The notes beneath the pieces were generated by a model, which was not told where the DNA came from, searched no databases, and saw nothing but the letters and a program-made list of their open reading frames with translations. Shown here in pieces: positions 2,207-5,245 of a stretch of DNA of 64,000 nt. The stretch spans positions 558,001 to 622,000 of the forward strand of contig CP136945.1 in the NCBI GenBank assembly GCA_041530395.1, read 5' to 3'. The stretch is from Thermosynechococcaceae cyanobacterium Okahandja (GTDB taxonomy: Bacteria; Cyanobacteriota; Cyanobacteriia; Thermosynechococcales; Thermosynechococcaceae). The translations under genes were made by a program, and so were the position numbers. Every line of letters starts with the position of its first letter. Position 1 is the first letter of the stretch.

Positions 2207-2238
2207 GGTGAGCATGTCAGCTAAAAAGCAGCAGGAGC

Positions 2239-2267
2239 CCCGCACTCTGGCAAGGGCGAGTGCCGGG
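2239..2267 (+). repeat. Left-end foldback of the TnpB element
   Basis: Imperfect inverted repeat: CCCG then CACTC, a ten-base loop, then GAGTG, one unpaired C, and CGGG. It lies ~60 bases before tnpB, where IS200/IS605 elements carry the subterminal hairpin recognised by TnpA. Pairing is visible in the sequence; the role is inferred. Confidence 0.55.
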
Positions 2268-2329
2268 AGGAATGCGAGTTCGACATAGGGACTAAGTCTG
2301 ATATCGGTCATGCAGACAACCTTCTTCTG

Positions 2330-3541
2330 ATGAGATACACTAAAGCTATGAATCAAGTCCTGACTATCTCCTGCAAGCTCAAGGTGTCCGAGTCGCAAGC
2401 CGCAAAACTGGATGCGACAGTGGATGCATTTGCAAAAGCGTTGAACTGGGTAAACCAGAATACGCCACAGAAGATAGTCAATGCGGTCAAGCTGCAATCC
2501 CTTTGCTATCGCGAGATTCGCGCTCGGTTTGGCTTGTCGAGTAATTTGGCTCAGCAAGTTTGCCGTCGAGTTGCCGGGTCTCGTAAGGTGGCGAGGCAAA
2601 AACAACGCCCAGTCAAAGCATTCAAAACTGGCTTTGTTACCTATGACGCTCGCATCTTCTCCTTTCGTGAGCGGGACTGGACGGTCTCGCTCACGACCGT
2701 GGATGGTCGTGAGCGCTTTGAACTGGCCATCGGCAACTACCAAAGAGGGATGCTGAAAGGAACTGCCCCTAAGTCTGCAACGCTGGTCAAGCGGCAAGAC
2801 GGCTCCTACTACATCCAGATTTGCGTGGCGTCGGAACTGCCAACCCCGCAGGATAGCGATAGGGTTTTGGGGGTGGACTTAGGACGTACAGACATTGCAC
2901 ACACATCGGAGGGACAACACTGGGATGGGCAAAACATAACCAAAGTTCGAGACCACTTTGCCAACTTGAGAGCCACGCTCCAGCACAAAGCCAGTCAGGG
3001 CACACGCAGTTCGAGACGGAGATGCCGTCAACTGCTGCAACGGCTGTCTGGCCGCGAGCGGCGGTTCCAAACATGGGTCAACCACAATGTGTCTCAACGC
3101 ATCGTTGAAACCGCTAAGTCTCTTTCCGCCAGCATTGCTATTGAAGATTTGACGGGCATTCGAGAGCGTACCAACCAACAGCCTCGCAGCAAAACGGAAC
3201 GCAGACGTAGTAATAGTTGGGCGTTCTACCAGTTGAGGTTGTTTGTGGAGTACAAAGCTTTGGGAGCTGGGGTGAAGGTTTATGCCGTTAACCCCAGATA
3301 CACGTCTCAAATGTGTCATCGATGCCTGCATATTCATCCCGACCCCAACAAGTCCTATCGGAGCGGCAAGCGATTTGAGTGCGGGCACTGTGGTTGGCAG
3401 GGTGATGCTGATTTTAACGGTGCAAAGAATATCGCTGCATTGGGGGCGCTTGTAAACCGCCCTGGAGGTTCGGGAGCAATGTCTTGTTCGTTGCAGGATG
3501 TTGTTCTCAGGGCTGCTGAAAGCCCGCTCCGTACCGCTTAG
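2330..3541 (+). CDS. tnpB: TnpB RNA-guided endonuclease (IS605 OrfB family)
   Basis: TnpB proteins are RuvC-type nucleases guided by an RNA from the element's own right end, and are ancestral to Cas12. The 403-residue length is typical. The RuvC acidic residues are present: Asp183 in GVDLGRT, Glu272 in IAIEDLTG, and Asp359/Asp361 in GDADFNGAKN. The zinc ribbon is complete (CHRC and, after a gap, CGHC). The N-terminal half has the helix-rich DNA/RNA-binding character of the family (KLKVSESQAAKLD). ATG at 2348 is an alternative start giving MNQVLTIS. No stop or frameshift is seen, so it looks functional. The TAG stop lies in the loop of the right-end hairpin, as expected where the guide RNA overlaps the gene's 3' end. 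Confidence 0.93.
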   Translation: MRYTKAMNQVLTISCKLKVSESQAAKLDATVDAFAKALNWVNQNTPQKIVNAVKLQSLCYREIRARFGLSSNLAQQVCRRVAGSRKVARQKQRPVKAFKTGFVTYDARIFSFRERDWTVSLTTVDGRERFELAIGNYQRGMLKGTAPKSATLVKRQDGSYYIQICVASELPTPQDSDRVLGVDLGRTDIAHTSEGQHWDGQNITKVRDHFANLRATLQHKASQGTRSSRRRCRQLLQRLSGRERRFQTWVNHNVSQRIVETAKSLSASIAIEDLTGIRERTNQQPRSKTERRRSNSWAFYQLRLFVEYKALGAGVKVYAVNPRYTSQMCHRCLHIHPDPNKSYRSGKRFECGHCGWQGDADFNGAKNIAALGALVNRPGGSGAMSCSLQDVVLRAAESPLRTA

Positions 3542-3561
3542 CGGTCGGAGTCGAGTAGTTT
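3440..3561 (+). ncRNA. Probable right-end guide RNA (reRNA/omegaRNA) scaffold of TnpB
   Basis: The 3' end of tnpB and the bases after it can fold into two adjacent hairpins: 3510-3525 (GGGCT/AGCCC) and 3527-3550 (CTCCG-T-ACCGC, loop TTA, GCGGT-CGGAG). They are followed by GAGTAGTTTAC at the element edge. In known TnpB systems the scaffold ends at the right edge and the guide is the flanking host DNA; here that would be the 3' end of dnaX, starting about base 3562. Folding is visible; expression and the exact 5' end are inferred. Confidence 0.55.
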
Positions 3562-5245
3562 ACTCCAAACCATCAATCACCACGCCATTAAAAAAACGCG
3601 CTAACTTTTGTGCTGATTCCTGCAGCGACTCAGTTCCTACGGGTTGTGGCGGGGCAGGGGGGGGCGCAGCGGGCAGTGGAGCCTCGGGGGGAGGCACTGA
3701 TACTGGTGCCGTCGGCGCAGTCGGTGGAGCTGCGACTTCCAAAAGAACCTTAACAGGGCGATCGAGCACCTGCCTAAAGGCCGCTTCAATTTTGGGTTGG
3801 TTATTTTGAGTCATGTTCAGCAGCGGTTGGCTGACAATGCCAATGCGCACCTCACTCTCGGTGACCCGCCGCAGATGACCGTGCTGCGACAGCAACGCCC
3901 GCGTACTAATGGGAATGTGTTGCAAGGCTGCTTGCCACAGGCGATCGCTATCAAGATCAAGGGACTGAGCCGAGGGAGTCACCTCCCTAGACAGCGCCGC
4001 AGTGGTAGGGGTAGCGGCGGTAACGGTGGGTTGGATGACAGCAGGAACTTTGCTTGGGGCTGGCACTGCCGTAGCCGTCGGGCTGGGTACAACTGACACT
4101 GCAAGAGGGGGCTGAGGAGCAATCTGTCTTTGCTCGTTCGAGCTTTCCGCCACAGAACTCAAACAGAGCAGCCCTAAAATGCTAACCTCCAGCCATAAAC
4201 GGGGTTGGTTACTCTGTTTGACTTGCCCCTCACAGGTGCGCAGATGCTGCTGCGCTTGCAAAATATCCGTGGTTGTCCACTCTTGGGCAATAATCGCTAG
4301 GGCCTGCCACGTCTCTTGGGTAAGTGCCACCAAATCGTGGCGTTCAGGTACGGTTTTGGCCAGTAATAGGTCGCGGTACAGGGCGGCTAAATTCTGCAAA
4401 AGGGTGAGGGGATCTCGCCCCCGCTCAAGCAGTTGACGGGTTTGCTCTAGGACGGCTACCGCATCACGGCGGCCAATGGCCCGCAGTAGCTCTAGTAAAT
4501 CCTGCTCGGGAACGGTGCCCGCTAACTGCCAAACCTGCTCTACTGTGACCTGCTCGGGGTACAGGCTCAGTTGATCCAGCATACTTTCGGCATCCCGTAA
4601 GCCCCCTTGCGCAAGCTGAGCCACAAGGGTTAGAGCCTGCGGCGTAATCCTAATGTGTTCTTGGGTGGCAATGTGCTGTAGATGCGCCACCATGTCGCTG
4701 AGGGGAATGCGCCGAAAGTCAAAGCGCTGGCAGCGGGAAATAATTGTGGGCAACACCCGCTGGGGATCCGTTGTGGCGAGGACAAATACCACGTGGGGGG
4801 GCGGCTCTTCAAGGGTTTTGAGCAGGGCATTAAAGGCGGAGCTACTGAGCATGTGACATTCGTCAATCACATACACTTTGTAGCGGCACTGCACAGGGGC
4901 AAATTGAGCCTTTTCAATGAGTTCGCGGATGTTGTCCACACCCGTATGGCTGGCCGCGTCAATTTCAATGACATCAAGGCTGGTGCTGCTGGCCACTTGG
5001 CGGCAGACCTCACACTCACCGCAGGGGTTGGCGGTGGGTTTCGAGGCGCGCAAACAGTTGAGGGATTTGGCAAGAATGCGGGCGCTAGAGGTTTTACCGG
5101 TGCCCCGCGGCCCACAAAATAAGTAGGCGGGAGCAATCCGTTCTTGTAGCAGGGCTTGGCTTAAGGTGGTGGCGATCGCCCCTTGACCCACAAGATCCGC
5201 AAAGCGCTGGGGGCGATATTTGTGGTGTAGAGGTTCGTAACTCAC
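3560..5245 (-). CDS. dnaX: DNA polymerase III subunit gamma/tau
   Basis: Clamp-loader ATPase of the replicative polymerase. N-terminal SYEPLHHKYRPQRFADLVGQ is diagnostic, with Walker A GPRGTGKTSS at residues 45-54, zinc-binding cysteines in NPCGECEVC and upstream C64, Walker B DECHML near residue 126, and the sensor SRCQRF. After about residue 370 the protein becomes Pro/Ala/Val rich (tau-like linker), ending RFFNGVVIDGLE. There is no intein, unlike dnaE/dnaX genes of some other cyanobacteria. The start is GTG. Its TAA stop (3560-3562) coincides with the right edge of the neighbouring TnpB element, so the last codon or stop may have been supplied by the insertion. Confidence 0.96.
   Translation of the reverse strand: MSYEPLHHKYRPQRFADLVGQGAIATTLSQALLQERIAPAYLFCGPRGTGKTSSARILAKSLNCLRASKPTANPCGECEVCRQVASSTSLDVIEIDAASHTGVDNIRELIEKAQFAPVQCRYKVYVIDECHMLSSSAFNALLKTLEEPPPHVVFVLATTDPQRVLPTIISRCQRFDFRRIPLSDMVAHLQHIATQEHIRITPQALTLVAQLAQGGLRDAESMLDQLSLYPEQVTVEQVWQLAGTVPEQDLLELLRAIGRRDAVAVLEQTRQLLERGRDPLTLLQNLAALYRDLLLAKTVPERHDLVALTQETWQALAIIAQEWTTTDILQAQQHLRTCEGQVKQSNQPRLWLEVSILGLLCLSSVAESSNEQRQIAPQPPLAVSVVPSPTATAVPAPSKVPAVIQPTVTAATPTTAALSREVTPSAQSLDLDSDRLWQAALQHIPISTRALLSQHGHLRRVTESEVRIGIVSQPLLNMTQNNQPKIEAAFRQVLDRPVKVLLEVAAPPTAPTAPVSVPPPEAPLPAAPPPAPPQPVGTESLQESAQKLARFFNGVVIDGLE

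Follow-up and report, generated by a model that had tools for sequence, protein, structure and literature searches.

The window (the whole stretch of 64,000 nucleotides analysed here, G000:C1:558001-622000) carries an insertion element of 1343 bp (2221..3563, forward strand) between proS, which ends at 2206, and the reverse-strand dnaX gene (3560..5245). The element contains tnpB only, without tnpA. Its tnpB gene (2348..3541, forward strand; alternative ATG at 2330) encodes an RNA-guided endonuclease of 397 aa, which matched NF040570 with 194.5 bits (cut-off 100) and also PF07282, and whose RuvC D/E/D and zinc ribbon residues lined up with those of solved relatives. Because the RuvC catalytic residues were present, assignment to the nuclease-dead repressors (TldR) was rejected; so was assignment to the Cas12f CRISPR effectors, since NF049972 was matched with 134 bits against a cut-off of 450 and the gene lies in a multi-copy element.

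Six copies of the element were found in the genome that holds the window (G000, 2.82 Mb), the other five being 97-98% identical to the window copy. The tnpB gene was intact in all six, and the pooled pN/pS of 0.24 points to purifying selection on the TnpB protein. From these copies, ∼80 further right ends in relatives and five empty sites, the element was defined as a tnpB-only IS200/IS605-type element, and it is a new member of this known family. A search of a plasmid collection returned one partial match only. The same genome also harbours a separate IS605-type element of ∼1.92 kb in four copies (L116-L119), with divergent tnpA and tnpB and the ends TGAACTACCCC... / ...GAGAAGAGTTAA; it was rejected as a member of the same element family because the ends differ.

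Ends, hairpins and predicted guide RNA

When the six copies, whose flanks are unrelated, were lined up, all of them started with CTAAAAAG directly 3' of TCAG and shared the right end ...GTAGTTTAC|, with divergence from the next base onward. In the window, TCAG (2217..2220, forward strand) is kept in the left flank as target and left cleavage site (C_L); it adjoins the left end in the copies of the relative G032 as well, and from this insertion motif the TAM of the window TnpB is predicted to be TCAG. The right end of the window copy, GAGTAGTTTAC (3553-3563), closes with TTAC (3560..3563, forward strand), the right cleavage site (C_R), whose complement G-TAA is the dnaX stop. The first-pass annotation had let the element edge coincide with the dnaX stop codon (3560-3562). 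The coincidence was borne out, but the exact edge lies one base later, at 3563, and the TAA is element sequence.

Subterminal hairpins were found at both ends. The left-end hairpin CCCGCACTC...GAGTGCCGGG (2239..2267, forward strand) had a DNA fold z of only -1.1, although its sequence was conserved among copies, as was GAGC (2235..2238, forward strand) at its foot. The right-end hairpin CCCG-CTCCG-ACCGC/GCGGT-CGGAG-CGGG (3523..3555, forward strand) was much better defined, with a single-strand DNA fold z of -3.8 that none of 200 shuffles equalled. Covariation was evident across 45 right ends: 98.7% of the stem cells were paired (22-44% in slid controls), and 45 two-sided changes were observed versus 12.6 in shuffles. 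The window copy carries an A at 3554 (G to A), which breaks one basal pair and is unique among the 45, so that this copy may be less mobile. AAAG (3519..3522, forward strand), next to the hairpin, was invariant in the same 45 ends. In IS608, AAAG serves as guide for the left site, TTAC, and GAAT for the right site, TCAA (PMC5934647). By this rule TTAC fits AAAG and TCAG fits GAGC here, and the two tetranucleotides are the predicted right (G_R) and left (G_L) guides.

The tnpB stop codon TAG (3539-3541, forward strand) had been placed in a TTA-G loop of the hairpin at 3527-3550. The hairpin (CTCCG-T-ACCGC / TTA / GCGGT-CGGAG) and the location held; the loop itself is TTA, and the G already pairs, opening the 3' arm. 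That tnpB overlaps the guide RNA region is usual in the TnpB family (PMC8612924). The position of the stop was not conserved: among 35 copies it lay in the loop in 23, 5 nt from the edge in 10 (where it is the TAG of GGTAGTTTAC) and elsewhere in two. A deliberate placement of the stop in the hairpin, coupling TnpB translation to omega-RNA folding, could draw on the loop stop of all six own copies and 17 of 29 G032 copies, but is very improbable and was rejected together with any special meaning of the in-hairpin stop, because the remaining copies keep the hairpin and end tnpB elsewhere, an extra loop base (TTTA) being enough to leave it 5 nt short of the edge.

A predicted omega-RNA (reRNA) scaffold extends over approximately 3420..3563 (forward strand) and overlaps the 3' end of tnpB. 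The RNA fold z of 3420-3575 was -4.8, and the AGGGCT/AAAGC blocks were invariant in the scaffold; comparison of the scaffold with Rfam gave no match. Judged from the sequence, the omega-RNA would span the tnpB 3' end, the right end and a guide taken from the flank. By analogy with the ISDra2 reRNA (PMC8612924), the predicted guide of the window copy is TCCAAACCATCAATCACCAC (3564..3583, forward strand), which follows directly after 3563 and is antisense to the last dnaX codons. The earlier proposal that the natural guide would be formed by the last bases of dnaX is supported, and it fits known TnpB biology. It had further been proposed that the guide would match its own locus only if the element were excised and the motif present, and the genome search agreed with this. 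With TCAG plus the first 15 guide bases as query, the only match within 2 mismatches was the own occupied locus, which is without the motif because TTAC stands in place of TCAG; a single further genome site had 3 mismatches. In the published model, the empty donor site is the TnpB target (PMC8612924).

Copies, derivatives and empty sites

G032 contains 37 tnpB copies, likewise bounded by these ends and preceded by TCAG. Joined flanks of six G032 insertions were used as empty-site probes in five congeneric genomes, and five of the six sites were found empty in G057, with gap-free alignment at the junction. These sites fix the edges and the target independently of the copy comparison. Three of them carry TCAG, one TCAT and one TTAG as the motif; the host stop was in register in all five (TGA in four, TAA in one). 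No target duplication was seen, TCAG being single in filled and empty sites alike. One G000 copy (L005, G000:C1:1238426-1239772) interrupts a short-chain dehydrogenase gene; when it was excised in silico, the gene was restored and the Pfam match ran through the junction.

Several shortened or altered forms of the element were also observed. An ends-only mini-element of ∼80 bp (L017/L220, G000:C1:2663023-2663104) reads TCAG|CTAAAAGCAGCAGGAACCCCGC...GTCGGGTAGTTTAC| and resembles the PATEs of IS605 elements. Derivatives of ∼210-230 bp without tnpB (L238, L245, L247, L250-L253, L255 and L256 in G032) retain both element ends and, between them, the final portion of the scaffold, and are possibly guide-RNA-only elements served by TnpB in trans. 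In a third group (L212, L213 and L218 in G000; L262, L284, L286 and L287 in G103), the inner right hairpin is swapped for a G/C-rich palindrome (CCCCCAAACCCCCGCACGCGGGGG and similar), while the stem base and GTAGTTTAC are retained.

As to the transposase, five full-length TnpA genes are present in the own genome and one intact gene in G032; their action on the tnpB-only element is putative. The stand-alone TnpA genes L115 (G000:C1:1828770) and L232 (G032:C1:544340) are similar, with ∼148 bits each to PF01797. L232 is a candidate trans-acting transposase, because it is the only intact TnpA in G032, where 61 right-end matches occur; the ends of the tnpB-only family were not found around this gene.

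Element ends on the stop codons of dnaX and other genes

The window dnaX ends ...FFNGVVIDGLE-TAA, with the last codons GAT GGT TTG GAG TAA. On the dnaX strand TTAC reads G-TAA, so the element contributes the stop codon as well as one base of the codon before it. When TCAG was restored in silico, the end read GAC TGA, so that dnaX would formerly have ended in TGA, the in-register C-TGA of TCAG. Both cleavage sites are therefore antisense stop codons in one register (TCAG as C-TGA, TTAC as G-TAA). Both fit the pattern TYAN; since its reverse complement, NTRA, invariably contains a stop codon, a TGA on the opposite strand becomes TAA in the same register with at most one residue altered.

The history of the dnaX site itself appears to be more complicated. 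Relatives do not have proS next to dnaX, and the junction between the two is private to the own genome; the window's own empty site is accordingly a reconstruction from the filled one. The window DnaX ends a few residues after the FFNG-type motif and is without the tail of the others, since in 39 of 39 other readable cyanobacterial DnaX tails this motif was followed by at least 25 residues, mostly acidic at the end. The acidic tail of cyanobacterial DnaX often reads ...DDVPF, DDLPF or DELEF (L027, L107-L114, L132-L211) and is lost in the window DnaX (3563-3590); it resembles the C-terminal tip of SSB. The missing tail and the private junction indicate that the locus was at some point rearranged, or that dnaX had been truncated earlier. 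The junction might have arisen by recombination between copies, with flanks from two insertions and dnaX truncated in the rearrangement. The separate location of proS and dnaX in relatives, the absent DnaX tail and an inverted copy ∼5.5 kb away (553392-554739) speak for such an event, but neither a reciprocal product nor a remnant of the dnaX tail was found in the flanks of the other copies, and we consider it rather less likely than not. Under recombination, too, the right flank would have followed TCAG before insertion, so that stop replacement holds either way and a former TGA of dnaX is predicted under both histories.

The coincidence of element edge and gene stop was not confined to dnaX. 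Among 76 right ends (61 from G032, 12 from G000 and 3 from G003), 13 abutted exactly on the stop of an opposite-strand gene, compared with 13 of 1635 TCAG sites in the background (odds ratio 26, p 6e-12). The excess persisted when noncoding sites only were compared (13:50 vs 13:354, odds ratio 7, p 1e-5) and when the background was restricted to TCAG sites that follow such genes by 1-150 nt (13:5 vs 11:60, p 7e-6). Genes were called by a home-made codon-usage score for this count; copies within a genome share ancestry, and all 13 host genes differ. Nine host genes are firm, namely dnaX, sigma-70, TonB, MgtC, NfeD, molybdopterin oxidoreductase, carboxylesterase, a Big_5 protein and a ChlN-like protein whose Pfam match was under the cut-off; the other four of the 13 are without Pfam support, and the nine alone gave p 1e-7. 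Four of 24 G032 ends fetched after the pattern had been noticed were at stops (p 7e-5). So were 2 of nineteen ends from other genomes (p 0.012), L265 at a PhyH gene and L267 at a gene that was judged UbiA-like by eye and had no Pfam match. L067, L249, L250 and L282 were excluded as gene-end cases because their opposite-strand frames look spurious.

Cause of the excess, proposed mechanism and known systems

Either TnpA may favour stop sites, or copies at such sites may be better retained. The strongest candidate is survivorship alone, the likelihood of which falls somewhat short of even: insertion would be blind to stops, and copies at TGA stops would persist because they are harmless. This agrees with the strong depletion of coding interiors, which hold 0.006 insertions per TCAG site, and with the nearly unchanged protein after replacement. 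However, other noncoding classes, presumably harmless too, hold only 0.02-0.14 insertions per site, against 0.64 at exact stops, and the comparison of 13:50 with 13:354 given above likewise speaks against it.

An attractive alternative is retention or drive by TnpB: at a gene end the guide consists of conserved coding sequence, and in populations that recombine or are polyploid, alleles without the element would stay targets. Both TTCAG and a full guide match (20 of 20 bases) are preserved at the empty L050 site of G057, the L072 site there matches at 19 of 20 bases, such elements are driven by TnpB in plasmids in the manner of a gene drive (PMC11870625), and tnpB is under apparent purifying selection. 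We nevertheless consider retention by TnpB fairly unlikely as the cause: the empty L052 and L128 sites are without TCAG, the L054 site matches the guide at only 16 of 20 bases, and TnpB activity is here deduced from sequence features. Right ends without tnpB also showed the same share of stop sites (4 of 24), unless they are served in trans. Still less likely is a preference of TnpA for the sequence or strand context of stop codons. An extended target preference for TTCAG (23 of 43) and the +1 base preference of IS608 and ISDra2 (PMC5934647) would be in line with it, but the excess persisted within TTCAG sites (5 insertions on 1 background site), and there is no evident cause for termination codons as such to be single-stranded.

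Whichever of these causes applies, we propose that a tnpB-only IS200/IS605-type element, presumably moved by TnpA in trans, inserts on the 3' side of TCAG, its own last four bases being TTAC. The tnpB 3' end and the right end would form an omega-RNA, with the adjacent DNA, here the last dnaX codons in antisense, as its guide. The occupied site would be spared, as TTAC replaces TCAG and the motif is gone; at an excised or empty site (TCAG plus guide), cleavage would be followed by copying of the element back in. An opposite-strand gene that ends in C-TGA would, once the element has landed there, end in G-TAA in the same register, with at most the last residue changed; such a stop swap probably took place at dnaX, and it is clearly over-represented among the other sites of the family. 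We put the probability of this explanation as a whole (IS200/IS605-type insertion, omega-RNA guide and TYAN stop swap) at roughly 80%.

The element shares features with several known systems. IS608 (ISHp608, Helicobacter pylori) likewise inserts 3' of a tetranucleotide kept in the left flank, has hairpin ends and pairs a TTAC cleavage site with the guide AAAG (PMC5934647). Its cleavage sites are both TYAN (TTAC and TCAA; PMC5934647), so the same stop-for-stop rule should apply; unlike the window element, it has its own tnpA, and it uses TTAC as target and TCAA as right site, versus TCAG and TTAC here. ISDra2 (Deinococcus radiodurans) resembles the window element in its RNA-guided TnpB, in a reRNA formed from the tnpB 3' end and the right end, in a guide taken from the flank and in a TAM equal to the insertion motif (PMC8612924). 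In contrast, it has tnpA, its activity has been measured whereas that of the window element is predicted, and its TAM is TTGAT rather than TYAN, so that stop replacement is not expected. IS1341-type elements and the PATEs of Haloquadratum also combine tnpB without tnpA, high copy number and ends-only derivatives, and stop codon replacement is not mentioned in the accessible part of that source (PMC3119063). IStrons share a built-in means of making insertion harmless (PMC4227781), but they splice out of RNA, whereas here the element end supplies the stop codon. No report of stop codon replacement by these elements was found in the open papers searched, although at other sites of the family it is backed by real empty sites and it is significantly over-represented.

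Cas12 is widely considered to descend from TnpB, and the persistence of tnpB elements in genomes is still debated. The TYAN rule predicts both the harmless landing sites of such elements and the guides that they then carry. Tentatively, IS200/IS605 elements with paired antisense-stop cleavage sites may form a class that settles on host gene ends by trading one stop for another and takes its guides from conserved coding sequence; with empty alleles still exposed as targets, such TnpB elements would occupy a homing-like niche.
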